Positions 6,420-62,530 of a stretch of 64,000 nucleotides of DNA are shown here, piece after piece. This stretch comes from Acholoe squamosa (lineage: Eukaryota > Annelida > Polychaeta > Phyllodocida > Polynoidae). A program made the position numbers and the translations under genes. The stretch is taken from contig OX439037.1 of the NCBI GenBank assembly GCA_949317995.1, positions 71,921,762-71,985,761 of the forward strand, in the 5' to 3' direction. The notes under the pieces are model-generated. The model did not search any database. It had not been told where the DNA came from and saw only the letters and a list, made by a program, of their open reading frames with translations. Numbering within the stretch: position 1 is the first letter of the stretch; each line of letters opens with the position of its first letter.

Positions 6420-7830
6420 TACTGACATCCTGTATACAAGTATATGATTATGCCTGTATTTGACTATGGCGCCATTGTAGTTGATGGTGCAGCCGGGAAA
6501 TATAAGAAAAAACTTGAGACAGTTCAAAATAGCTGCTTGCGATGCTCTTTAGGCATAAAAGCAGCTACTGACATTAGTCGCGTCGAGCTACTGACGAGAA
6601 CTAGATGTAAGCGCCTGCATGAACTGCGCAAAAGGCAACTATTGGGAATCATGTATATGATATCAGTAAATACCCATCAAATGTTATACCGACTTAGCGG
6701 ATTGTCCAATGGGTGCCGCCATTGCTGAAGCTTGTTCCCAGCTCTTATCACTGATAACAGCTATCTGATGGGTACTACGTACTGCCCCCCGAGAGGACTG
6801 CAGTAAATAGCTGGTGTTATTTCAGAGGCGTAGGAAGCAAATCTTCATTGGGGGGGGCCCAGTGAGGGCCCCATCGCGACCACCTTGAATAGTCAGCTGA
6901 AGCGCGATGACGTCTATACATATGTATATAGAATTTGTATAGAAAATAATTTTGGGTGAACTTTGTATCTGACTTTAGGCTCAGACCCCCATTTTCCCTA
7001 TCCCATCACCATATTAATCTAATTTGAGATGAAAAGTCTAAGCTTATTTTCCATTTTGTTTATGAGTTCTTTGGGGGGGGGCCCAGACATAATCAGGCCC
7101 CACCTGCTTCATGATTGGGGGGGCCCAGGCCCCCCTGCCCCCCCCCCCTTTTCATACGCCCCTGTATTTCATTGGCTGATAATTAAATGAGCTAAGTCGC
7201 CAGTACGCCTCCTGAGAGGGAATGTCAAAGTAAATCTATGTGTAAAAAGGGCATATAAACTACGCTATGAGAAAAGTCCTTTGTATAGAGGGGGAAAACT
7301 CTGGCAGTAGTTGACCCCAGACTTGCAATCTAGTTCGAGTAATCGAGAGTTTCTAAACCGGCTACCAAATTGAAATTATGCATAAAGTGAGTGTGATTAT
7401 GTGATTAGGGCTTCAATATCTCTGCGAATTTGTCTGTTGCATTGTATGGCCCTTGTTGAGGCCATAAAGCGCAAGGATTGATCAACTTATTCTGAGTCCC
7501 ACAGTGGATTATGTAGCTATACCCCTTGCAAATTTGGGATAGGCCCCGAAATCGCAACAGATTCAAAATCGCAGAGATATTTGAGCCATTTTTCGCCAAG
7601 TGGGATTCGACCTATACACAAAACTGGTACTGATTTAAAGGTAATGTCATGAGCTGCATGAGATATGACTAAGTCTAATATATATCATGCTATTTGAGCA
7701 CTGATCCGCTGATTATTGATGACACTATTGTTCATGTTTATTTTTGTTCCTTGTTTGGCTACAGTGAACAGCGAATTGTATTATTTGATCTTTAGTCAAT
7801 AAAAACTTTTAAAACTCAAAAACTCAAACT
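6420..7830 (+). pseudogene. non-LTR retrotransposon (LINE) reverse-transcriptase 3' remnant
   Basis: At 6444-6728 a frame reads MPVFDYGAIVVDGAAGKYKK, then KLETVQNSCLRCSLGIKAAT and VELLTRTRCKRLHELRKRQL. This is the conserved YG...KLQ.VQN..LR...L......R...L region after the catalytic domain of Jockey/CR1/RTE-type reverse transcriptases. The frame resumes after an inserted MITE (6823-7164), at 7218-7380, with NVKVNLCVKRAYKLRYEKS, GGKLWQ, an in-frame TAG, then LTPDLQSSSSNREFLNRLPN, the usual GxxLWNxLP..l....s...Fk..l end. AATAAA at about 7799 and an AAAACTC-rich tail to about 7830 probably mark the 3' end. Dead copy: stop codon, insertion, and no 5' part. Confidence 0.75.
6823..7164 (+). mobile_element. 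G-tract MITE, family B copy 1, inserted in the LINE remnant
   Basis: A 342-bp element starting CAGAGGCGTAGGAAGCAAAT and ending CATACGCCCCTG, with long G and C tracts just inside each end. It is flanked by TATTT on both sides (6818-6822 and 7165-7169), a 5-bp target duplication. It splits the LINE frame and so inserted later. No open frame of note. The left 90 bp match the reverse complement of the right end of the copy at 7988-8273. Confidence 0.8.
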
Positions 7831-13100: not shown

Positions 13101-16100
13101 CCATAGGTCGTGTACGTTACTCTTTATGCTATTGGTTCGAAACCCTTCAGAGACTGGTGCTTCACCTCTAGTAAACTCTTATTTTCTTTCTATAATGCCT
13201 GTTGTATAAAGCACCTATAATAACCTGGGATCCTAAGATAAGGGCTACACACACAAAAAAAAAAAAGAATTGAATTATGAGCATTAAATGACAATGTGAA
13301 CATACCAGGAGAAATTCAAAATCATTGACCAGCAAGTCCAATGCTCAGCTCAAAGTGAAGTGTTCCTAGAAATACCGAGGATGGGCTCTATGCTCTTAGA
13401 TTACCTATAGCCATTAGAGAGAGACACCGACCTATATCCACCACCCAGGTACTATAACTTCCACTAGAAACACTTCTTCACTGCCTTACAAGTGGGAGGG
13501 TGTCTGCATGTCTTTGCCCCCTTTTTGCCCTGGGCATACACGCGTGGTGATGGTACTGGAGCGCGCGTATTTTTGTCACCACCTCCTTTACCCTCGTCAT
13601 TACAGTCTCCAGAGCCTCCTCCAGGGCGCCACTATATACTACAGTGGTCGTACATTCCCCCTGCTTGTGTTCATCCAGGGTTGTGGCTGCTGATGTCGTG
13701 GAGGCTGTCCTGGGATGGGCTCCATTTAGACAGAGCCAAACATTTCTCTTTTTCTCTGCACTAGCCCCCCCCCCTTCACCCCAGCTCGCGTACGATCAGT
13801 CACCTTCACGACCACTAGTTGTTTGTTATTGGTAATCCAGGCTCCAAATGAACATAGGTAAATTACGCAGGATTATCGGTATACATGTTTTTATGGCGCA
13901 GACAGGTACAAGGAATCGGTTTACACTCTTCTGTCGTCTAAATGATACCCCTGCCAGGGATATTCAAGGATTATATAAAGATAGATACCAATGCACACGT
14001 ATTGAAATAGATGGTTTATGAATCATATCATATCTCTGTTTCATATAACTATGATTTGCCTGAATTTTATCATAAATCTCTCCAGAAGTTTTATTTAACC
14101 TAGACTTATTACAAACCAAAACAAGTAGGTCTACACTGTTAAAATGAGGTCCGCGTGTACACACAGCTGGCAATGGTACTTTCTCTCCCTCTTGACATGG
14201 CAATCAGTTCATCTTTCCGATGACGATATAGCCACTCCAGCGTTGAGGGGTACTGCCTACAGATGTCTCCGCCTTGTCTCAGCCAGGCCACCATGAGCAG
14301 CTCGGGGCTGGCAGGAGCTGCTCTGAACTGCTCATCCAGCCTGAGGAGCTGGTATGAGTCGTCGACGGGCGCTGATAGATCACTATCATGTCAGGTGCCA
14401 CTCTGGGGTGCATTGCCGCTGGTAAACATCACCACTCACCTCCTCCTGCTCCTCATCCTCCTGCAGCCTCCACCTTCTCTCTATACACCCACCCTTCCTC
14501 CAGGGCAGGGAGCAAAGGGGAGAGCAGTTCGAGAAGCTGTGAAAAAAAAACCCACCTAGTCCAGGACACTAAATTGTACACAGCAGTGTCATAACCATAC
14601 AGCAGTTGGTTGTATGGCCTTTTTCCTCCATCTCTTACCTTTCCTTGCTTCTTCCGTCCCATGCACTCTCTTTATAATCCCTTTCCTCACTCCCTACCCT
14701 TCTCCCATCCCACTACACTACCATCCCGCGGTAGGGGGGGGGGGGCATTGGTCTTGGTTTGGGTACCAACTGTGGTACCGACCCTGGGGAGTGGTGGCTT
14801 TCGATGCGCGGGGAGGGGAAAAAAGGGGCTGTCGACTGAATTGAATTTTAAACTTAGGGGGTTGACTATTATTGCCAAAGAACCATATTTTACATGAAAG
14901 AGGGCCCGAAAAGGGGGGGGGGCTGCTATCAGACTTATTCAAAAGAAGGGGGCTGTAAAGATTAGCCACATTTTAAGGGGCTGTGAAAAGGCAGACTGTA
15001 GTTTTGCAGCCTCCCCCGGGACTACCGCCCTGCTCCCATCCTCCTCCTCATACTTCCACGTAGTATGTGCTAAGAGAAGATTCCCAGCCACCCTAATCGA
15101 TTACAAAACAGACAATACAACCTCCCTCATTGTTCTAGTGTTAGATTGATTACAAAACAGACAATACAACCTTCCTCATTGTTCTAGTTTGAGATTGATT
15201 ACAAAACAGACAATACAACCTTCCTCATTGTTCTAGTGTTAGATTGAGTACAAAACAGACAATACAACCTTCCTCATTGTTCTAGTGTTAGATTGAGTAC
15301 AAAACAGACAGTACAACCTTCCTCATTGTTCTAGTGTTAGATATCTTCAGGCTCATCTCAGTCATTCCATATTCTCTGTAGACCCTATAGATCATCTTCC
15401 ATGTATAATACAGTGAAAAATGCATGTCAATCACAAACTGCCACCCACATGGGGAATATGATATAGACTAATGAACTATGTTATCTCCTGACAAGCTCAC
15501 TTCAAACATATTCTTTGCAAGGTGGCTAATAAATTTGTAAACCCATCCCCTTATCACATTGTTTATCTTGCGAGAAGCAAAATGAAAATGGCCATGTAGA
15601 AATAGGAGGTTTGGTAAATAGATTAGGATACAGATAAGATGGTAAGAGCACTGCAGGTATGAAAAACATGTCAGCGATAGCATTACCACAACTATTTATC
15701 TGTGGTGACGCCTTTGACTTGCCTCTTTAGAAGCCCTCGAAGCGATCACAGAAAAAAATCCTCTGCCCCTCACCTGCTGCAAAGTCCTGGCTTTTTGTTA
15801 CCTTTCACTTCATTTCTTTTGCGTCGGACCCCACAAGATGTAAGTGACATGGTATAGTGTACTAGAAAATGCGCACAATGTCCAGTTCTATAATTATGTA
15901 AGTGGCCAATCCAACCTAAAGTAGTCATTCCACCTGAGCTAATTAAAGGATTTTGTTGACTCCATGGGACTTATAGACTGAGGAAAGTTGATATTTTCTA
16001 AGAATTATGCATTGTAGTTCTGCATGCGTGCGATCTGGGAATAACGATTCATCTCGACATTGTTGTCTGTACTTTGGAGTTGACCTATTATGATGCTTTC

Positions 16101-42240: not shown

Positions 42241-42305
<65 letters not shown>

Positions 42306-45300
42306 CGTTAAAGAAGAGAGGGATTGAAATTAATTGATTAATTTCAAATATCTATAACCTTGAAGTGGAAGATTCACCATCCTTGTACAGTATATAATAC
42401 CTAACACCTTTCATTTAGACTAACACTCACAGATTGGCTGTGCAGTGCACAATATATCGATATTTATCATTGAACCCCTTCCCCCCACAAATAAGCTGGT
42501 CAGTGTTCAATGCTATGATATCTTTCATTGAACCCTTACAGATAAGTTGGGCAGTCTGGCAGCGCCCTATGCCGTGGACAGGACGCCAACGTCAGTGCTC
42601 CTGGGTTGGAACCGGACGCAGCTCCCCAACGTGACGTACAACGTCCAAAGACGTTACGCCGACCTAGAGGGAGGAGACTGGGAGGACCATCATGACGTAC
42701 AATGGGAGGGCGATGATCGCCTCAACGTCACACATCTACACCCCTTTATCTCATACAATGTACGTATACTATCACACATCTACACCCCTTTATCTCATAC
42801 AATGTACGTATACTATCACACATCTACACCCCTTTATCTCATACAATGTATGTATACTATCACACATCTACACCCCTTTATCTCATACGATGTATGTATA
42901 TTATCACATATCTACACCCCTTTATCTCATACAATGTACATATACTATCACACATCTACAACCCTTTATCTCATACAATGTACATATACTATCACACATC
43001 TTCAACCCTTTATCTCATACAATGTACGTATACTATCACACATCTACAACCCTTTTTCTCATACAATGTACGTATACTATCACACATCTACAACCCTTTA
43101 TCTCATACAATGTATGTATACTATCACACATCTACAACCCTTTATCTCATACAATGTACATATACTATCACACATCTACACCCCTTTATCTCATACAATG
43201 TATGTATACTATCACACATCTACAACCCTTTATCTCATACAATGTACGTATACTATCACACATCTACAATCCTTTATCTCATACAATGTATGTATACTAT
43301 CACACATCTACAACCCTTTATCTCATACAATGTACATATACTACACATAATATTATACACCCCTCTCATACAATGTATTTATGTAGTATATATGGTTTAT
43401 TCAACCCTTTGAATTACAGATCCTGACACATTTGGTTTTCTTCAATGCCTACTCTATGCCTACAGACACCTTAGAACCCGAAATATGACACTTCTTCAAC
43501 ATATTCTACAAATAAAATAGAGAAAAGTGTTAAATCTACTAGAGATAAGAGTCAGTCATATGAACAGATAACTAGAAACTGCGAACAAAGAGACTAAAAT
43601 TGAGAAGCCATCTGTCTCTTATCTAAGTAGACCTCTTTTTATTCAGTTCCGCTGTAGAAATATGTGTTGCTTGACGAAGCCCCATTTTCCTCACAATGGG
43701 AGCCCAAATTATATGATTTTTATGAATATAACCCCCAACTGGCTCTGCAACTGCAGATATCTGTTCTTCATTTTCCCTTTTTTCAAAAGTCAGGAACAGG
43801 AAGCGTGTTTCTCGTCATGTTATCTGTGACTGATTAAAGATATAGTAGGGCTTATGTCATGCAGATATCATTGTTCCCTTGAGAATGCCTTCCATCCCAG
43901 GCTCTCTTTATTACCTCACGTCGTCAGGCATAAGTGGGAGCTGGAGAAATGGCCATTTTTTATATTTACATTTGTAAATTGGTCACAACGTGTGTCTTCT
44001 TCCCAGACCGGAAACTACCCCTTAAGACTAGAGCAGGCTGGGTAGGATTGTGGGTTTTGACAGTTGTAGGTATTTATATAGCAACCAAACAGGAAGTGTC
44101 CACATAGAGATAACCTAACGGTCAGGCACACTGGATCAGGCTGAGATCTTAGAGACAGGGGTGGAAGGAGGTGAAAAGAAGGTACCTTCTAGGAGAAGAC
44201 AAGGGAACGGTCATTATTTTTGTATCTAACAACTGCAAGGTGGGGAGCACGTAAGATGATGCATATTTCCCCAGCTACACGTTTATGAGAAATACAGTAA
44301 CCTATTCTGTTGTTATATTTTTTTCAATACAAATTGGCGAAATCGTCCCGACATTCTAGGGGTGCAGTTTCTTTTTCAGAGTTAACCCCCTGCCCCCCCC
44401 CCGTCATCCATTGTCAAATAATGATCAGCCCACTAAGAGGGTGTCCCCATGAGGCCATCCCCCGGCCCATATGGCACTAATATGGCACTAATACTCTCTC
44501 TTCACCTAAGACCCCTTCTACCCCTGGGTCACCTCCTTTCTACCGGGGTGCCACCGTCACCTCCAGGTTCCTATTGTACCCACTGACCTTCCTGACTCAA
44601 CCTGCTGATTCCAGGTGGCAGCACTCCCCCAAGAACAATGGGATGGGGGAGAGATGCGGAAGAAGTTCTATCTGTTGTGTGGACCATCTCAAAATAAATG
44701 TTGGAGTCGTGGTTAGGGCACCCCAAAACCCACTGGCACATACATAGTTTTATATAGGCCCATCCCCATTCTTACATGATTTACAATGTCGTGCAAATTC
44801 AGTAAATCATGTTATGTATGAAGTGATATAAGTTTCCATAATTATCGGTGATATATACCTGTATTTTTGGAGTATTCTTCATCCTTTTTTCTTCCATTTA
44901 TTTACAGTTCAGAATAGTCGCAGTTATTTCCAATAGAACCCATGTCAATTCTGAAGCTAGTGGTCCCATAGCTACACATGCTTCTGGAGGTGAGCAAATT
45001 TCATTTCAATACTTGTTATATGTAAAGAGGTGTTAGATAAGGGAAATTCCAAAGTGAAATCATGACACAAGGAAACTATAAAAGGCTTGAGCCAATGATA
45101 GCTGCATGCATTGATCCATTGCTTGCATGGAGACCCATTGTGTCCATATGTATGAGCTTGATAACTGTTATTACTCCAAATGGGCAATTGTGAGAGGGTT
45201 TCCTTTTGTAATATAAGCAACGTTGTCTCATTCAATAGTTCCACTGATTGCTTTACAGCACCTTCCAGCAAGCCCACCATCGTCTCTCTTATCAGTTCAT

Positions 45301-48300
45301 CTACTTCAATACACATCCGATGGGAGGCGCCTTTCTTCAAAAATGGCAAACTTCTCAATTATCGCCTACAGCTCCACAAAGAAACATCAGCAGCTCTTCC
45401 CATTGTCAAGGACATCCCATTGGGCTCTGACGTCAGTGACGTCATAACGGAGATAATAACCACATTAGAGCCTAACACTGAGTATGAAGTGACTTTGGCT
45501 GCACGGAATCGCTTTGGTTGGGGCCCAGAAGCCAGCGATATCATTGCCACCCTTCCAAAGGAGGAAAGTAAGTTATTTTACATATCACACAAAAGAGAAA
45601 TGAGCATTGTCTGACTCTCTCGTGTCCCCTAAATCCCAGTATCGCCTAACTTTGTAGAGAGTCTAGATTCAAGAAGAAGAAACATGTCTTGCCACAATGG
45701 CTTTGCAATGCTGTACATCAATCAATAAATGGTGAATTCTGTAATCTTCGACAGGTTGGTCTCTGGTTTTGTATTTCATGTTCCTTTCCGCATTGATTGT
45801 TTCCTAAAACTATTGTGAAATTCCCTCCCTGTATCTCTTGTTCTATCCCTAGGATCTGGAGAAACGCCGTACCTCATCATGGGCAGTGAACACAAACTAA
45901 GACAGCACAACCTGCTGGAGGAATCTGACCCGGGTCTAAGTGTGCTCTACAATGACTCCTACACCAGCATCTTAGGTAAGTCTACCTGGATACCTTCTAT
46001 AAGCCTTTAAGGGCCACATAATGTATTAATGCCTCATGCCCTTTGGTCGCCAGGGCTGCATTCTAAGCATCATGCTGATTGACCCCATGGGGTTGATACA
46101 CCCTCGATGGGTCTGCATGATGCACCAATGCAGTGCTGGCAAGTGTACTCACCAGCACTGCATTGGTGCATCATAACGACAGGGGGACATGAACCTGCGT
46201 GTGGCCCTTAAAGGGAGAGGTCCCCTTCCCCACTCTCCCCTTATACACCCACCCTTCCCACTGACTTATTCCATGTGCATTTTCTGTCCAGTGTTGTCGT
46301 TCTAAGTTGTGCATGAGTGTCCTTTCCCCACCACCATTTTGCATTTGATGCAAGCTATGACTGCACAACATGTTCCAAATGTTCTATCCCGGCTACTTTA
46401 GCCGGTGGACGGTTTTTGATGTGGACATGAATGACTTGTTACAACCTTTACTTTGTAAGTTCATAAAATGTTGAAATGCATAGTTTTGAGCTCCTTAAGG
46501 TTATATAGAGCAATGCATCAAATAAGACTTCCCAATGATTTCGGGTTAAATTAGTTTTATCACGATCACTGAAATAACGAGGAAGGAATCTGGATCATTG
46601 TGTTATTGGTTAAATCTAGATGCAGTATATTGTTCTGTCGTGACCCAGGAGTTATTTGTAGCTATTTTTGAGGTGGACAGGACTTGCTGATCATTGTGTC
46701 TGTATGATTATTTCAAAGATCGTAGAAAGCAGTTTACAACTTTTCATTGACATCCCGGTCACTTGCAATCAAGGCCTCATTTGCAATCAAGGCCTGTCCT
46801 GTAATCATTTGGGGCATATATATAGGTCATGGTCTTGCAGACACAAAGGTCTATTTGAAAACTGCTGTAAATGTGACATCAAACATAAATCTACATCCAG
46901 GGACATCATCATCACTGCGTCTTAACTAAGCCAAAATCAATTGTTCAATAGCTCTTCTCTTGGTCATTCAAAGGTCGGGAGATATTATTTGAAATGAAGC
47001 AGCTCATTGTGGAAGGTAAAAATGTGGGTTTATCCCTTTAAAGGTCGTATAGTGCACTAATGCATCATGTCCATGAGTTGTCATGATGCGTGAACTCAGC
47101 CAAGGCGAGTCGACCTGCCAGTGCTGCAGTCATGCATCATGATGGCCCTATGGGAGCACCTCCCAGTGAGCAGAAAATGTTGAATCAACGTTAAACTAAC
47201 ATTGATCATGGTTGATCAACGTTATTATAATGTTGATTCAACGTTCTGTGCTTTGGCCAATATTATTACAACGTTGATTCAATATTCTGTGCACACCGGG
47301 CTATGTTATCCAGGGAGGGTAGGAATGATCCATGAATGCAGCCCTGGCGAGTCACTCGCCAGGGCTGCATTAATGCATCATGACGGCTCATAGGCATGAT
47401 GCATAAACATACCATCACCATTAAAGGGTCATCACCACTCTAATTCTCTCTGTACCAGATTAGTGTAATATAGAGATATATTGTGATATAGAGCATGGCA
47501 TATTCTGGCTACATTGAATGCTTGTATTGTAGAGGCTTAGAATAAGCATTGCTTATAGTGTGTTGCTTATAGGAATACTATAGAACAATTCTATATCTTG
47601 CCTCTAAATGGGGAGTGTATCTAAGACCTTTACTGGATCTTCATTTGAAATAGTAACTGGTCCTGAGCCTGCGTCAAATCGCAGAGGAAATAAAGACACG
47701 TTATCTTTTTTATTATTTCAAAATGATAAGTATGACAAAACAATTGCTTACTGAAGTTGACATAATACAATCCAATTTCTTTTCTTTGGTGATAGCATGG
47801 AGATACTTCTACAAATTTCTATGAAATATTCTACATTATCTCTTACTGTCTAGAGCATTTCCCATGGTTCATGAGATAATGCTGAGGATCACAAGTGGAT
47901 GTCATGGCAATCTTAAGACATTAATGTAAAGATGAAAAGGGAAAACTGATAGGAGGGGCTGGGTCTTTAAAGCATGTGCACCTGAGATACTTCATTCTTC
48001 TTAAGCTAGCAGCATCTTCCAGTACATAAAATGGAGTCTGAATTTTAAATCATACATATGATCATTTTAGGTACGATTGTAGGCATTTTATAAAAGGCTG
48101 GTAGTCGTCTCATCAATAGAAAATATGAATGGTATTATATCGTGCATGATTTACTATCGCATGACAAGCTCTCTCCCTTTTAGGTAGAGCCACCAATCAC
48201 TATAACTGTGGTTTGATTCCTATTCCAGAGTTTAGGTAGTACTTATTAGATTTGATGTTATAATGGTTTATAAAATATGTATTGGATTCATATGTTTAAT

Positions 48301-51300
48301 CTACTTTAATACACTTACCTTTCTAGATATAGTGTATGAGTTCTTTAATTGGATCATATTAATCCAATTAATAAGACACAAAAGTAACCAATTTACTTTC
48401 TTAACCCATAGGTAAAAGAAAGAAAACAATAGCGAGGTTGAATTGATGTAGCACATCACCCTAAGAACTAAAATATGAATAAGATATAAGATTCATCAAT
48501 AATTAAACTTTGCATTACATATAAGTAAATGTCATTATATTATATACACTAACAGCAATCTTCATCTGTATTAGCTGTTCCATTATGCTACAACTTTATC
48601 TTTCATTTCTCATTATACTGATTTAGAGCCAATGCGAAGTATCAGTGAATAACGATGGCAATGAACGGCAGATCCATAAACAAAACCCATGTTACAAGTC
48701 TTTAATTCTCATGTAAAACTATAACTTAAGAATGACATGATTTTATTATATTTTTTCCCTAGATGTGGCCATCCACTACTACCACCACTATATCTTCTTC
48801 TCCAACACCTCTGGCTTTGTTTTCCGGATGGACCGGAGAGTCCAAAACGAGGTCCGAGCTATTTACAACAGTCCTCATCATCCGGGACCTCTCAGCGTCG
48901 ACTGGCTTCATGATAAACTCTATGTAGGGGAAGACAGTAAGGTAGGGTGAAGTTGTATCAAGGTTGCTGTGTAAATATTTTGTTTATATGTAGTCTGCTG
49001 AAAGGTCTCTCTTTTCATTATTAGAACTGTAATCATGAAAATTGGATGTATTTAAAGGTACATTTTCAAGTCATTATGGGACCAGCAAAATAGCGAGTTT
49101 GAGTTATTCAATACAAAGACTTGGACATATGATATTGATTATGATAGGTGAAAGCTGGCTATGGCTGGCTGGGTGGATTTTATGTAGTACATCTTTCCTC
49201 GTTGACTTTCAGATCAAATCGTGTGGACTAGATGGTTCGTCCTGTATTGTCGTTCTCGACAACTTGCCCTCTCCACCTCTCAGTGTTGTAGCTGACCCTT
49301 ACAATGGGTAGGTGTTTGAATGACACCGAATGAGAAATGAAAATGACAAATAATAAAACAGCCATATTTCTGTGTTCCTTTGCTATACAAGACACTAATT
49401 ACAAAGAATGTATATAAAGGTTCTTTAACAATCAATATATAATCGATGAATGCATGTCTATTTGGTGAGAATTAGGGAGTGATCATTTTTTAACAACAGG
49501 GGGGGGGGCTGGTGGGTGTGAGGGGGTCAGAATTTTTTCGACCCCTTGACCGGGGTTCAGAATTTTTTTTTAACCCCTCTGATGGGGGGTCAAAATAATT
49601 TCACCTGTTTTCAGTGGAAAACCCTGTGCGTTTCTATAGGTTTCGCCCCTTATGGGGGGGTTAAAAAAATTTTACCCCCTCAAGAGGTGGGGGCCGAATT
49701 TTTTTCCGCGCATTCCGCGCGCAAACCCACCAGCCCCCCCTGTTGTTAAAAAATGATCACTCCCTTATACTAAAATAATCAATTGTCATACCCACAATGG
49801 GTTTAATCATTAGTTTTCATGAAATATTTGGTGAAAAGGTATTACCACAAAAGAGAAAAAAATGTTATGGGGTAATATTAGTATTAGGCGATGTCATAGC
49901 TCCCTGAAGACAGCTACCAGGATGGGCCTATGTAGGAAAAAGGAAAAGCCAATTGAAGAATCTAACACAATTTGTTTTTCCTCATCCCCAAGGTACCTCT
50001 ACTGGTCCCATGCTAAACCCCCAGGGCTCTATCGTATTGACCTGGCCGACCTTGGTACGTCTCTGTCCGACCCCTTCGTCAAGTACCGCATCCTGCACTG
50101 CCAGCAGGAGCGTTTTACGACATTTGCCGTAGATTACGTCAACTATCGTCTCTACTACCCCGTGAACGCCAGCACGACAATCAAGAGCTCTAATCTCGAT
50201 GGGACTGAGGAGAAGGATGTGAGGCATACAATACAAACTACACGGTTTGTTAATATAGAGAGTATGGCCATGCACAATGACAGGTTCTACTGGACAGACC
50301 ACAGCAAGGTGAAAAAAAATATTCATTAATTGAATTATTCATTAGTTTTTAAAGGTATCACAAAAAAGAAAACTATTCATTAAATTCTAAAGACACAGTT
50401 TAAGAGCAACAGCATGAAACACACGATGACCGCTCTTTTCGTGAACAGGAATTGTCATCATATCTTGTATCTCGGGTCCTCATATACTACTGATACATAA
50501 TCATAACCCCACTGATCTGTATCAGAATACCCCGTTAATTGAATGTTATTTTAGCTGCAAAAAAGGGGATAATAAGTTCGCGACTTCTATACATAATAGT
50601 ATTTTCATCTATTCCCATCTCAAAATAGCCTCCTCCACATTCTCTATACCATACACAGGTGTTCTATGAGGAGTTTGAGGGGAGTAGATCCTACCACAAC
50701 CAGTTGTTGGTGTTTGACAGACCCTTCACAGGCCTCAATGTGTGGCACCCCTCAGCACAGCCAATACCAGGTAGGGACCACTTAACCATTTAAGGGCCGC
50801 TGATGCATTGATGCATCCCTGGGGAGTAACTCGCCAGGGTATACATTCATGCATCATGACGACCCTACGGGATTGATACACAGACTCCCGGAGGGTCGGC
50901 ATGATGCTCCAATAAAGTGCTGGCGAGCAGTCTCACCAGCACTTTATTAGTGCACCATGATGCCAAAATCTAATGGGCATGATTAACCATTTTGGACACA
51001 GTATAATACATTAAAACATCGGGTTCTTGAGCTGTCCAAAAGGGCCAGCATTGTGCTGCAATGAACTGCTGCCTAGTCACATACCATCGCCGAATTAATC
51101 ATCGTAATTGAATAATGGTGCCCTAGAGGGTGAACATGTGCATTAAAACATTAATAAGTTAATGTACACAGCATTGGAAACCAGCCTTACTCTATGCCAA
51201 ATGCACCACACGCACAGTCTCTTTGGTCTTGCCAAAACTAGTCTGATCTTCTCACATACCCTGAGCTGCTCATCTAAATTTAAGGATTTCCCTGCCACAA

Positions 51301-54300
51301 TGGCAAATATACGAGTAAGGGCTTTAGTATAGTTATCATGCACATTTGCACTTTGTACATCTATTGAAGTGTTAATCACGGCTTTAATTTTAGTCCCACT
51401 GCAGCCACCCCGCAATCTACAGGCTATCTTCTCCTCCAACACCACCACACTACAATGGGAAAGGCCTGACTGGGACCAAGGTAAGTTATAACTCATATAA
51501 ATACCTCAACTTGTATCATTTCTTATCGTGATGCACCAAGTACTGCCAGCTAATGTCAGTTCTGCATTGATGCAATAACATACAGGTAAGGCATGATAGA
51601 ATGCCACAGGGCCAGCAAAATGTATGAGTTCCAGTGTACATGTCTTGTCGACTTTATGTAGCCATGATCATGAATGCATCAGGAGGAATAGCAAGCACTG
51701 TCCCTCAGCAAATCCCTTATAAATGAAAATAAAGAAAGGAAGGTTTTCAATCACCATGATATTGCTACCTGTAGGCCAGGGGGCGTGGCAGGACTGGTGG
51801 TATCAGGTAGAGGTGACGGCTACGTCAAGTAGACACGTCAAGCCGACGTTGAAAAACTGTACGTCAAGACATTTGAAGATCACTGACCTCCAGCCCCAAA
51901 CTGCCTACAGCTTCCGGGTGAGGGCTTATACTTCTGGAGGGCATGGACCCTGGGCGGATCCATTCTATGGTGAAACTCTCAAAAATGGTGAGTACTACAT
52001 GCATATCAATTTCCTAAACCTCATGTTGGAAATGACATTTCTAATATGTAGCGCAAGCTTTGCCACTTCAATAAAGACTTCATTAAAGTTCCAATAAAAG
52101 CATTATCAAATAACCACGGACATTGTACGTCCATAAGATGGGTAGGCTAAGGAGCTTTGATAATTCTTAAAGTAAACATTTACATGAGTAGATATTCAAG
52201 TTCCACCAAATGCCCACAGCCCTAAGTCACGAGCAAAAGGCAATTAAGGGACATGGTGAACCAAAGCGGGTCCAATGACTATAGTAGAACAAGGTGCCAA
52301 AGTATATCCAAATATCAGAGGAGACCCAAGGGCTAGAGGTGACCCACATATTAATAAAGTTTATAGTGTTATGACATGACAAGTTCAATCTATGTGATTT
52401 TGCAGATGGCAGCCAGCCGTACCTGGTGTACTCCGTGTCAGGGACCATTCACCAGGTGGGCCTGGATGGTACCAAGAGTCAGGACGTCCTCCAGCTCCAC
52501 GCCTCCAACACCATACAACGTAAGTGCACCTTTTAAGGACCACTAAAGTATCAGTGTTTCATGCCTATTTGTCGTTATGATGCACCAATGAAGAGCTAGG
52601 GAGTCCCACTTTAAAAGGTTTGGTGTCTTTGGGATGATACTACTCACACACTGACCGTGGAATGACCCATAGACAGTGCCTGCCACCAAGGCCAATTTGC
52701 AATTTACACACTGACCATAGAATGACCCATAGACAGTGCCTGCCACCAAGGCCAATTTGCCATTTACACACTGACCATAGAATGACCCATGGACAGTGCC
52801 TGCCACCAAGGCCAATTTGCCATTTACACACTGACCATAGAATGACCCATGGACAGTGCCTGCCACCAAGGCCAATTTGCCATTTACACACTGACCATGG
52901 AATGACCCATGGACAGTGTCTGCCGCCAAGGCCCATTTGCCAATACTACTTACACACTAACCATAGAATGACCGGTGGACAGTGTCACTTATAATGGGAA
53001 CCTTATGATATAGGCTGATTTTAACATTGAAGGCCGTAATGTGCATTAATACATCATGTCGAAAGGCCTCATATATATGGAATCTCCAGGCCTGTATTTC
53101 TATATCACAAATATACGAGGGAATGCGGCACTTGAGGGGTTAACAGTTTAAGAGAGGTGCGATACCCCAAGGCTTCATACTCAATTTCTTTGGTAATAAA
53201 CCAAGATTGTGTCAAGGAGTAACTGACCTGTTCTGTAGCATGCCGACCCTACACACCAATCAAATCACGATCCTCTTATGAAATGTCTCGCCCCACCCTC
53301 TTGGTATCTGGGTGCAACGTGTATTGATATCCTGAGTTGCTGTTCTCCAAAAAAAAAAGGAATTACAGAATGAGATTGTATCATTTCTACCCAAAACTAT
53401 ACACTGGATAGTTCATTTACAGAGTTACTGATGGTGAATGGCTGGTACATTTGGCTGGACAGTCATCACTTTGTCTACATCAAGATGGGCGCCCTGTCCC
53501 GTCCTCAGAGGATACCTAACATCAGTAAAGTACTGGTTATAGCTTATGACTGGCTAGGACAAAAACTCTACTGGTGGAACACTCAGAATCAGGTATGTAT
53601 ACTACATTGTACTAATTAGTTATTTCTCAATGGCCTATATATGAAGTAGATTCAGTTAGGTAGTGGCGTAGGAAAAGGGAGAGGCAGGGAAGATCCCATA
53701 TATTTATAAGCTTATATAAACTTATAGCGCCCCACCCCAACCGAGACCCCTGCCCTCCATAAAAAAAAATTTCTTGCTACGCCTCTATCAGATAGGTAGT
53801 TTCCTTTGCCAATCAACAATTTAAACTGATATCTAAAAAAGATAATGAAAAGAATTGCAGTTATAATACACTCTGCGTTGCCTTTGCCATCAGTCCCATG
53901 CCTATATTGCCTGAGCAGTATATATTGCAACATTTACCCATGACCAGTATTAATATAGCCTAAATATACATAAACCTATCCTAATCTAATCCGCCAATGT
54001 TAATTAATTCTTCATACAGATATCTAGAAGTAACCTGGACGGCCATGGCGTTGAGAACGTCTACCAGGGCATCTCCCCAGCCTACCACCTGAGCATTGAC
54101 TCTAGGGAGGGCTACATGTACTGGGCCACCAGTAACACTGTAGAGGTAGCCCACCTGGACAATAAGGGGCATAAGATAATCAGGAAACTGCCACAGTTCA
54201 ATTTCTACATCCTTGGGCTGACTCTGGATCTAGATCACCGCACCCTCTACTGGTTGGCTAAGGAACACCAGAGGACTATTGTATATTCCTCCAGGCTGCT

Positions 54301-57300
54301 GTCCAGGACAGAGCCCACCCTGGGTCCTGTTATAAAGGTGACAGAGATGGACTCACCACCCAACCAGAGGTCAGTGTCTCTAGATGATCCATCTTGTCTT
54401 GCATGATTGGCATTACATTTTGAAACATGTAGGCCTCAGTAGGCCTATTTCTTACAAGTAGGGCCCACATACATAGAATACAGATTTTTTAGCAGTCAAA
54501 TAAAATTAATAAGTGTGTAGATCTACCCTGACATTCCAGTTCTGTGTGTTAACTTATAAGACTATCTCTTCTTATTGGGGGTCCGTATTGGTATTGACCA
54601 TTAAATTATAGCATGATGGCAACTAATAAGTCAAGTTGGTCACTATGGGCCTACACAGTTCCTGCCCGATTAAGACTTTATCATTGATAATAAAAACAGG
54701 TGCTGCTATGCCAATGGACTGGACCTAATATGGTTAATATATCTCATGTTTTATATTTTGTTCAATTTCCATCTTCCAGCATCCAGGGAATGCACTACTA
54801 CAGTAACCGTCTGTTCTGGCTCAGTTCCCATGGTAACATCGTTGTCATGGATACAGCAGCCCACAATGTGGCACGTCTCGAGCTGCCCTCTAGTGGGCAA
54901 AACATTGCCAGCCTCAGTCTCATCAAACCTATCACCGACATGACTTCTGGTGAGTAGACTAGGAACTATCCTACCATTGTCACGTCTCCAGTGTCATATT
55001 CTGACATAAATCTGTATCAGGCCATTTAATTTTGAAAACTTGGATGACAGATTCGCCGCTGGGATTTTGGCCAAAATCATTTTATTTCCCCCCCCTTCTC
55101 TCCATTTATGCCTGTCAAAATTTGATGGCCAAAATAGTGTATTCCCAGGTCGTTTTTGTCCTCTGGACGCTGGGATATTACGGGGTGTTTTGGCGTTGTT
55201 GTATTTTTTTCATCTGACCGCCGAAATTCTGAGCTCAAACAGTCTCTAATCCAAGTTATCATTATTAAATGGCCGTTATCGGCAAGGAATATGCATGATC
55301 AATATGACAAGGCCTCGTACCAGTTATCAGCAAATGTATATTGATTCCAGGACATTGCAGATTTTTTTTAATGGTGAGGCGGTGTATGCCAGCCCCCCCC
55401 CCCCTCCCGGTGCAGTCTTCCTAAGGATTGGACTGGTGTGTATATAAGTAAGCGACTGGTGCGCCCCCTAGTGTGGGTATGATATAGGGCTTAGTATTGA
55501 GGTCCAGTGGGTCTGCCATTGCTTGATATGGGAACTGGCAAGATAAGCACTGATAACTGCCAGCATGATATGTACCTGGTGTTACATAATGTACCCAATT
55601 CTCACTGGTTGATAATGTATCCCGGGTCAGCCCTTTTGGGTGTAAGTGGGAGTGGAGCTGGTTCTGGTGACTTGCACTGATAAACTGATAAGGTAGGGAC
55701 CAGCATGTCCCTGGAAGTGGGTGTTATCCAGGGATAAGGTACCCATCATGACAATACCTTATCAGTGTGTTTTGCCACCTTTGGCATAACCAGCGAAATT
55801 CAAAATGGTGGATCCACTGGATATGGGTCCAGGCTCCTATAGAACTAGGACAATGTATAGATGGTGACATGCCTAACTGATAAATGTAGTTAGGGATTTA
55901 GACATGACCAAATAATAGTCCACAGATGAATTCCTGATATCGATCAAAACTGCAGTCTAGGGCCTCGAAATGAAAATCCCCAAGGGTGGGGAGTGAACAT
56001 AATTATCAGAGCAGGATAGGGTGGTGAGATTCACCATGGACGGCCACAAATTTATTGTTTCCCCTGTTGAGAGAAACAGGATGATTATGATCTCCATGTC
56101 GATGAAGTTAAACCTCCGTCGACCTTTACCACTTGCTAAGAGGCTTTGCTAAGAATAATAATCATTGATGACTCCCTCACAAGTGAAACATAAACTTCCT
56201 TGTTTCCACGTCTTGTATTTCATAAAATAAGGATATTAAAACATAAAAAATGCATAAAAATGATATGGCGCCAGCATGTTGTGTAAAAATAGGTGTGTGG
56301 CCCTCATGTCTTGATACTACACAGACCCTTAAGTGGTTTTCTTAATACACTCTACTGTATTTGTGATACACTTCAACGGCCACTTTGGAGACATCCTGGT
56401 GAGAGAGTGAAGAGGGTCATTTATTACTCCCTGATTTAGATGCACGTAGGCCTACTCACATTGAAAAACTTTCCCAATTGAGAATCCAATACCCAATCTA
56501 AAATATAGCATTGGGTATTGCATTCTATATAGGTCCAAATGGATTTATCTAATATTTCAGGTCTTTTCTTCTTACAGACAATTTACTGTCATTTTGTAGA
56601 GCTCTACGTGGATCGCCCATGTACTTGTACATTTTAAATGACTGTCATAGTATTTGGATAACTTTTAATTTCTGGAAAAGATATATAAAAAGTTTAGCTA
56701 TTGCTTACTCATTTGGCTCGATTGAGTGAGAGGAGGGGCTGGTAAAACTGGTATGCTTATTATTAGTGCGAGTATACGATACTCACCATATATAAATCTA
56801 TACCAGATCTATTGAAGGAAATCAGTGGTGCAAGTCATTTGAGCATTTTGCACCCTTTGTATATATGACCCTCTACGTCCGCTACTGACATAAATGTGGC
56901 TTACCATTGGCCCGTTGTCAAATCCATTCACCCATTTCTAGGAGTCACCTAAATAAATCAACATAAATATGGGGTTAATTACCAATAACTATTCAGAATA
57001 AATATGGTCAGGAATACAAGCAAAGGTTCCAGATAACGCCTTACATCTGAGTAGCATATAATCATTCTACCTAGAAGAGTAAGAAAAGTATAGAAATGCT
57101 GTAAAAAATGTATAAAACCAAGGGACCATACTCCTTTATGTAAGAGAGAGTCCTCCTGTGCCCATTACAATTTGAAGAAAAAAAAGAGAAGGATGTGTAA
57201 GAAGTCCACTGTGCATACACATTGCCCCAAGCACACGGTCTGTCAGCAAACTTTCTTTAGTTTCTGACCCAGAAGCCTATATTGTAAGGACAGAGACCGG

Positions 57301-60300
57301 GGAAACACCTGGGAAAGAGCGGGGTGGTTCCATTTCTTCAACTTAATACACGAATAATGTTAATCAGCCCTCAGGATTCAGATATGGCCTTTCTTCCTTA
57401 TGGGTCTCTCTACAAAAATAAGAGGGAAACGGGAAATATGCTAGACGAGAAAGACCCTAATCTTAGGATTTGATAGTCAAATGAGGACCATTTATCATTT
57501 TCTTTATTCTGTACCTTTTTCGAAAGACATAGTCTTTGTCTCCTCGCTATCTATGCGTTGTACTTTCCGTTTTCCTCCTTCTTCGCATAAGTGTATACCT
57601 CTAGCCTTAGCCGTTTACATGATGACAAACATTCATTCAACACTTACTATGACCCTTGATATCCATACAAAAATTAACTCAAAAGCATTCCCACTTGCAA
57701 AAAAAAACACACGCACTTTTAACATTTTTATTAGGTTTTTTAGTGTTTGTCTTTTTAATGTTTCTAAAAATGTGTTTAAGTTTACATAATTTTTTACATT
57801 ATGTTTTTTAACCTAAAGGAAAAAGGGTTTTATAGAACGTAAAAAAACAACGTTTTTGAGTACTTGTTTTGACGATTAAAACAAACGTTTGGTAAACTTA
57901 GGAACATAATAAAAACTTTTTTTAACGTTTAATAATTTTTGTTCATGTGAAGTGGACTATTTAATGCTTGCTCGAGCTTTGTCGAGTTTATAAAGGACAT
58001 GCCTCGGTGAGGGGTCGAGATCAGAAGTAGATTTCCTCATTATAACACCACTTATATTCTCAGAGGACAGGGTCCGGCTCAGTATTGTCCAAAGAGCAGA
58101 ATCTAACCACCCAATGGATCCATTATAACGTGAACCACGGGGTTTCAGGGCAAAGGAATTGAGTGGCCTGGAGGGTCTTGCCTAAAAGGAAACGAGAACC
58201 AAGAAAGAAAACGTGCACGTTTTTGTCTTGCTAAATAGTTGTTTGGATAATCATTTAGAGAAAACGTGCATGGTTTTTTAGCGCCTCCCATGCCGCGTAG
58301 CGGCGGTACCGCGAAGCGGTACGGGAGTGCGCTATGATGATTGCATTTGCCCCATGTGATGAGGTCTCACAATACAAAATTACTGAATAGAGAAATTGAT
58401 AATTGTGAAATCTTCTTTATGTCTGCTTTTATGAGACATGTCATCAAACACTGGTATACCGACATTAACAGGGGGAGGCGTTTTTTTACGTGGTCACAAC
58501 CGCATTTCTTGTTTACTTCTTAAAAAGAGTTTTCCATACATTTTGCTGTAACTCTTTTGTCAATACTATGAAACGAATTAGGCCATTCACATTTACCCCA
58601 GCACTCTCTGAAAATTTTTACAGAGGTTCATCCTCGTCATCTTTTGGCAAGACCCTCCAGAGACAATAAGAGATACAAACAGGTACAGATCTTCCTAATA
58701 TAGCCCTTTTAAACAATCAAATAGCCATTTTGAGCAAGCAATTAAATGTAAAACTTGGCAGTGAATGCCACAAAGAAGAGGGATACATGGTGGATATTTT
58801 TGGCCTGTCCATAATACCAGCAGCCATAGGCAAACCAGTTCTGGTTATTTGTTCTTGAGCGGGGCTTTGCAGTTTAGAGGCGTTTTTGCTATGATTAGGA
58901 CATAGGGATCCAGTTGGGATTCCCTACCTAAATGGACAGACAGACTATTATCCCTATCATATACATATTATTTTTTGCCCCCAGTATCTATTTTATTCAC
59001 CCCCCCCCCCACCACATACACACATTCCCTTACTTCCCGAGGCAGTGAAGTGAGTTGCAGGGATCTGTATAGAAGTGACAAGTTGTGACGTCTTCCCCCA
59101 CACGTCACGTCACGTCACGCAGCACTGAGCAGACTGACATGTAGACGACCCATATAGTACCGTGTAGGGCTGGCCTGTAGTCAGTAGGAGGGAGAACAGC
59201 GACCTCCTCACATGTATAGGGATAACTTCTCTGAAACTGTTATATCTTACTCATATCTTCACAGGGATGACACCACAGTGTGTTTACATGTTATGTGAAT
59301 AGCTACTATAGGATTGCACCTAAGGACATGTTGGGAGTACCTTTCAATGTGCTGGTACATATACACCTTGCCTGGCCGAGATGGCATTATCATGACGACA
59401 GGGCTATATCCACAACACATTTAATGTCCATGGACAGGGAATTCACAGATGGAAATTGATTTTCTCTTTAATCAATAGTTACAATGATGAACAAGGAGAG
59501 GTGGCATTTACCAAAGTTTTTTTTATTATTGATTATTGAGTATATAAGCCAAGGAGAGAACAACCCAATGCTATAAACATATAGCAGGTACCTTATGCTT
59601 TGTGCGTGACTTCAGTGCAAAAATGATACTTTGGCGGATAATTGATAATGATGCTCCATGACATTTCCGCTGAACTGACAATAAGGATCCATTTAAAAAT
59701 AAATCAATGTGGTGAGCAAAAGGGGATCCTATACTGGTGATATAATCCACTCATAAATACACATTATATGTATATTTGTATATACATGTATGTTAGGATG
59801 CTGAGTCATGGTTAGTCCCCTTCTGTGGTGGTATATGTTGGGATGTCCCCCCTTTAACATTAACAAACAAACTAGAAGTATGCAGGCCACTACGTCTGTA
59901 TTGCACATGAACTAATCGTTCAGTTACACACTTTCGCTCAGTAGCATAAAGCGTGCCAATTGGGACAAGAGAGACATGTAGGGGTGATAGGCTTTAATTA
60001 CTGACCTTAATCACCTCCCTATGTGTCAGACTGTGTACTGGGGACAAGTACATGTGGCATTGATCGTGTATATGTGGGACACAGAGAAAAACAGGAAGGT
60101 TAAATAAGTGGTGGTATTGTGCAATGTGAGGCAAGTTTCATACAGGACCCATTTCATTGGATGTTGATATCTACAAAGACACTTGATTTTATGGAGTGAT
60201 ATAAAATCGTTAAATATCACACATCCACTATATGACATGTAGGGATGTATTAGACAAAATTTTGGACTGTAGGCCACTGTCATATTGCCTGTCTTTATCT

Positions 60301-60598: not shown

Positions 60599-60852
60599 GT
60601 GAGTAACTTTTTGTTTTATTGCCCTGCATGTATTAGATACATAGATTTGCTCATGCTGAGTTCATGGAGAGTTGATTAATTATGTAAAAGCAGCATCCTT
60701 TTCATTCATCAATGCATCATGTCCCGCACCCATGTACAGGTAGATGTATATAGAGAGTTATTACACGACCCAGTGCCTGTTATATATGGATATCAGGCAC
60801 GCCTTACAAATTTGAGACATGTCATATGTCACATGTTAGAACCTATGAGAAT

Positions 60853-62463: not shown

Positions 62464-62530
<67 letters not shown>
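62464..62530. repeat. (TA)n microsatellite
   Basis: About 33 TA dinucleotides followed by CACACACA. The open frames across it are artefacts. Confidence 0.98.

Follow-up and report, generated by a model that had tools for sequence, protein, structure and literature searches.

A 44-bp minisatellite spanning a predicted 5′ splice site in a ROS1-like gene of Acholoe squamosa

Tandem repeats at splice signals are known from several systems. In human ABCA7, intron 18 carries a VNTR with a 25-bp unit that opens with the GT donor of exon 18; use of the second-unit donor retains one unit and shifts the frame, and is unaffected by array length (PMC5954066). For the ABCA7 frameshift isoforms the paper lists 14 ± 6 and 2 ± 1%, 'respectively'; we take the 2% to be the value for one-unit retention (PMC5954066). 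In human IFI6 (6-16, G1P3), the use of two downstream units of a minisatellite as donors results in three mRNAs (PMC4526556). Intron gain has also been described as an outcome of tandem duplication over splice signals, with repeated 24-bp AGGT segments in fission yeast genes as cited cases (PMC4974935).

We describe here a related arrangement within a 64,000-nt stretch of Acholoe squamosa DNA (the window), where a minisatellite begins inside an exon of a ROS1-like gene and repeats the end of that exon together with its predicted 5′ splice site. The features concerned are the following.

42542–42759, plus strand: FN3-1 exon ('d') of the ROS1 orthologue, ending ...LHPFISYN in phase 0, placed by phmmer alignment to ROS1 chains from AP onward and by frame
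42728–43343, plus strand: 44-bp × 14 minisatellite, placed by TRF and in-register copies; copy 1 comprises 32 exonic and 12 intronic bases
42760–42765, plus strand: donor 1, AAT/GTACGT, ancestral by gapless ROS1 alignment and presumably the main 5′ splice site
42804–43337, plus strand: donors 2–14 at 44-bp steps, of which 4, 7, 10 and 13 keep the frame
43344–43378 (end approximate), plus strand: degenerate 15th copy with donor AAT/GTATTT (GTATTT after 43374)
44908–44989, plus strand: exon 'e', FRIVAVISNRTHVNSEASGPIATHASG, phase 0 to 1, donor GAG/GTGAGC, from three-frame reading
45259–45567, plus strand: FN3-2 exon, by Pfam fn3 (1.7e-11) and ROS1 alignment, with its end set by eye at AAA/GTAAGT

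The array and its copies

Run on the window, TRF reports a period of 44, 14.1 copies, 94% matches and 0% indels over 42728–43347, with the top score among the window's 30 TRF rows. The 14 copies have a mean pairwise identity of 94.7% (lowest 88.6%) with no indels, and 35 of the 44 unit columns are invariant. A core 18-mer, allowing up to three mismatches, matches 14 times in the window, always inside the array; shuffled sequences average 0.13 matches. TRF, the common register and the 18-mer count thus all confirm the tandem array of 14 copies at exactly 44 bp that a preliminary description had reported. Its definition of the unit as an exon end plus a 5′ splice site also stands, but not the division into 30 coding and 14 intronic bases: the maximal unit has 32 exonic and 12 intronic bases, the register of the repeat being arbitrary. 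Exon d closes with base 42759, the donor G following at 42760. In register, the 14 copies fill 42728–43343, and the degenerate 15th copy is added.

Three sets of identical copies occur (1 and 2; 3 and 11; 6, 10 and 14), which is the pattern expected from slippage or unequal exchange; copies 4, 5, 7, 8 and 13 carry private changes. The consensus unit holds two G per 44 bases, and AG is absent throughout 42728–43343, as had been stated.

Other repeats occur in the window. A strong minisatellite (60 bp × 5.6, 93%) lies at 52646–52984 within the ROS1 gene region, a 49 bp × 5 array at 15099–15342, and perfect (AT)29.5 and (AT)33.5 tracts at 42243–42301 and 62464–62530, respectively; an open frame at 6426–6725 resembles, by eye, a LINE-type reverse transcriptase fragment and is a candidate for one. 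Altogether, 20 arrays of period at least 10 cover 2,437 bp of the window. Taking 16–20 exon boundaries, our own estimate, 0.61–0.76 array/exon-boundary overlaps are expected by chance, or 0.45–0.57 leaving this array out, and an array of this length alone has 0.15–0.19 expected exon-edge overlaps.

Upstream of exon d, diverged tandem copies are found at 42428–42477 and 42486–42535 (50 nt, 72%, spacing 58), and a partial third copy over the exon d acceptor and start (to 42560) shares 15 of 18 bases. Scores as high as those of these acceptor-side copies arise in 52 of 3,121 adjacent-window controls and in 1.7% of up to 3,000 random pieces. Exon d may carry tandem duplications over both edges.

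The ROS1-like host gene and the junction at donor 1

The product spliced at donor 1 and extended through FN3-2 has as its best five of 101 PDB sequences, by phmmer, 9pwq (3.6e-27), 9pvp (3.7e-27), 9oyz (2.8e-20), 10gh (1.1e-17) and 10ft (1.2e-17), four of which are named ROS and one, 9oyz, tyrosine-protein kinase receptor. That ROS1-type entries come first for the FN3-1/FN3-2 product bears out the earlier assignment of the host gene as ROS1-like. Exon d starts at 42542 or 42563, each preceded by AG and each in phase 1 when read by eye, and ends ...NVTHLHPFISYN at 42759 in phase 0. Across the d–e junction, SYN/FRIVAV aligns to ROS1 without a gap (query LHPFISYNFRIVAV versus LHPFTEYIFRVVWI). This gapless match to solved ROS1 chains marks donor 1 as the ancestral 5′ splice site, its authenticity resting on protein alignment.

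Two scoring schemes differ on how the exon should be read. The best ROS1-chain match of the donor-1 product reaches E 3.6e-27 and 98.5 bits, whereas the donor-4 product (query with seven extra N-terminal residues) scores 83.4 bits against ROS1, split into two pieces; the ROS1-specific alignment favours donor 1. Pfam fn3, by contrast, gives 34.9 bits to straight read-through and 29.8 to the donor-4 product, and 24.3, under the cutoff of 25, to the donor-1 splice. We take this preference to be mimicry, as GTACGTATA reads VRI like an FN3 F strand and the motif recurs in the array. Although the Pfam scores point the opposite way, straight read-through as a coding exon was rejected as the main reading: a TAA at 43348 closes the frame of exon d, and the ROS1 continuation is supplied by the exon at 44908.

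Further downstream, the frame of an FN3 at about 51.77–51.98 kb has two matches, both of them ROS1 sequences (E 3e-6). A segment near 54.0–54.3 kb resembles LRP4/LRP6 propellers, with a best E of 5.9e-5 and no single stretch passing the cutoff, and a piece near 50.1–50.3 kb resembles LRP4 at merely 2.2 bits. A tyrosine kinase domain search of 45600–60601 on the plus strand gave no match, and the gene may extend past 64000. The putative intron after a YWTD-like exon starts, at 53593–53604, with GTATGTATACTA, 12 bases equal to the intronic part of copies 3, 9, 11 and 13; this identity with the array is probably due to chance. No RNA family match reached the gathering score.

Donor strength, reading frames and composition

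Donor 1 is weak. It has a matrix score of 2.15 and a U1 pairing of −3.8, against 3.12–5.98 and −6.0 to −11.0 for seven other putative donors, which were picked by eye, with a further donor near 51.99 kb lying outside the scored set; all of these scores are rough, resting on approximate versions of the matrix and of the U1 5′ end. Each copy re-creates a GT donor (14/14), and the +5 G is kept in ten. As nine-base sites, these ten differ at +4 alone, save that copy 4 also differs at −3. Donors 3, 9, 11 and 13 score slightly higher than donor 1; copies with TG at +4/+5 pair with U1 slightly better than donor 1 does, copy 4 having a lower matrix score, and CA copies are much worse (−1.15, −0.7). 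Sites at least as strong as donor 1 occur at 2.56 per kb outside the array, and nine fall in its 616 bp, five to six times that density. The weakness of donor 1 leaves room for leakage to later donors and is the main evidence against its strict use. Where equal donors compete, the one closest to the acceptor can be favoured. Use of downstream donors in IFI6 counts against strict donor-1 dominance as well (PMC4526556).

Donor n adds 44(n−1) bases to the product. Our frame computation agrees with the earlier claim that donors 1, 4, 7, 10 and 13 are in phase 0 and add 0, 44, 88, 132 or 176 residues; none of these five products shifts frame or meets a stop up to 45565 in FN3-2. The remaining nine of 14 (donors 2, 3, 5, 6, 8, 9, 11, 12 and 14) lead to a stop starting 7 or 26 nt into exon e. 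Donor 15 is in phase but preceded by the in-frame TAA at 43348, and skipping exon e (82 nt) shifts the frame and gives a stop in FN3-2.

The preliminary description also pointed to three open frames, which do extend over 42532–43347, 42668–43423 and 42717–43409. They are one fact and not three because 44 mod 3 is 2 and any frame runs through all three. Of shuffled sequences, between 6% (mononucleotide shuffling) and 23% (dinucleotide shuffling, by our own routine) are open in all three frames, and 42% lack AG. Design was rejected as an account of the open frames and missing AG, being unneeded for features within composition expectation. The GT is invariant, and any two given columns are both invariant with a chance of 0.63.

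The loss of the +5 G in copies 5, 6, 10 and 14, which had been noted before and is confirmed here, looks like CpG decay, since variation at +4/+5 consists solely of CpG to TpG or CpA transitions (five copies CG, five TG, four CA). CpG cells are off consensus in 9 of 28 cases, against 12 of 588 other cells (Fisher 4e-8, a value that overstates the case because cells are not independent and states are copied along the array, the direction being clear). Across the window, CpG is depleted (observed/expected 0.43) and TpG/CpA is in excess (1.24). Of the later copies, one of four that keep the frame (10) and three of nine that do not (5, 6 and 14) lack the +5 G. Selection against rival donors was rejected as a source of these changes, all of them CpG transitions on one strand or the other. 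The evidence put forward for function is weak and fits the composition of the unit, and the suggestion that the array tunes isoforms is left unsupported, its suggestive features being explained by composition and CpG decay.

Competing readings and known systems

We favour, at a probability of roughly three in four, a minisatellite that arose over the splice donor by chance and is largely neutral: splicing would take mainly donor 1, a little would leak to later donors, and the mRNA from that leakage would mostly carry a stop. A 44-bp segment would have been tandemly duplicated and expanded by slippage or unequal exchange, and would have happened to take in the last 32 bases of the FN3-1 exon and its 5′ splice site. 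Tolerance of the array would follow from its first copy, in which the exon end is intact and the donor still works: with 42759 joined to 44908 by the spliceosome, the remaining copies would leave with the intron. Later donors would see little use. Nine of these 13 lead to a stop codon near the start of exon e, and such mRNA would presumably be removed by nonsense-mediated decay. The 'tolerated, length-variable splice lottery' of the preliminary description is close to this reading, though in our view the lottery would lean towards donor 1, and the length of the array may vary.

A family of functional in-frame isoforms, in which donors 4, 7, 10 and 13 insert 44, 88, 132 or 176 residues into FN3-1, strikes us as improbable. 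Besides the weakness of donor 1, it draws on the stop-free products and on the 29.8 bits that Pfam fn3 gives the donor-4 product, whose last-copy peptide MYTITHLHPFISYDFRIV phmmer aligns directly to ROS1 and which carries a substitute E strand, MYTITHL. The inserts end in FISY[N/D] before FRIV, and it is doubtful, in equal degree, that the domain edge is rebuilt in this way with the insert forming a loop. On that phmmer alignment, strand F of the donor-4 product need not be broken by the insert, which can be viewed as a loop placed ahead of a regenerated E/F hairpin. Yet a regenerated exon end follows from any exon-end duplication and is not evidence of use; this insert is rich in tyrosine and aliphatic residues, half of its 44 positions being Y, F, W, I, L, V or M and two D, E, K or R (one D, one R), which is unexpected for a loop of a secreted protein; of the 13 later donors, nine shift the frame; and neither donors nor frame carry a signal of selection. 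Insertions of 44 residues are possible, given a weak donor 1 and in-frame products that regenerate the FN3 edge. Equally improbable is the fuller view of quantal ROS1 ectodomain isoforms, with 44n residues added to the first FN3, strand F regenerated each time to let the fold close, the weak donor 1 providing an adjustable choice and array length setting the range.

Somewhat less improbable, though still unlikely, is that array length tunes ROS1 output, longer arrays shifting more splicing towards out-of-frame donors or provoking exon skipping and so leaving less functional mRNA, with length varying between individuals. Skipping of exon e shifts the frame here, and in ABCA7 greater array length is associated with increased skipping of exon 19 and reduced expression, but unit retention in ABCA7 is unchanged with length (PMC5954066). 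Least probable of all is an artefact of assembly or sequencing. The array's sets of identical copies would fit one, and tandem arrays are prone to copy-number error. Against it stand the private changes, the degenerate end copy and the presence of other arrays in the window; the copy number itself may be wrong. The chance, largely neutral minisatellite with donor 1 dominant remains our preferred reading.

The locus provides a natural test of spliceosome choice among 14 near-identical donors in one transcript, and suggests that a minisatellite can spread over an exon edge with the protein unchanged, provided that the first donor is used.

With 44-bp units, inside the 10–100 bp range, lying over a 5′ splice site that is placed by protein alignment, and with GT in every unit, the ROS1 array belongs with the splice-donor-spanning minisatellites of the ABCA7 and IFI6 kind. 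At about 12 bp, the IFI6 unit gives in-frame steps, whereas at 44 bp two of three steps shift the frame. What the IFI6 and ROS1 arrays share is a minisatellite that supplies multiple splice donors (PMC4526556, referring to Turri, Cuin and Porter 1995). In ABCA7, likewise, the tandem repeat includes the exon donor, and there length polymorphism and a disease link are known; no exonic bases are described as part of the ABCA7 repeat (PMC5954066), whereas the ROS1 array repeats 32 coding bases too. Intron gain by tandem duplication, which needs AG and GT from the unit and makes a new intron (PMC4974935), was rejected for this locus: the array lacks AG, and no canonical new intron can end inside it. 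Literature searches met no mention of ROS1, and we make no claim that the array is unpublished. As the kind is known from human ABCA7 and IFI6, the value of this locus is that of a further example and not of a new principle.
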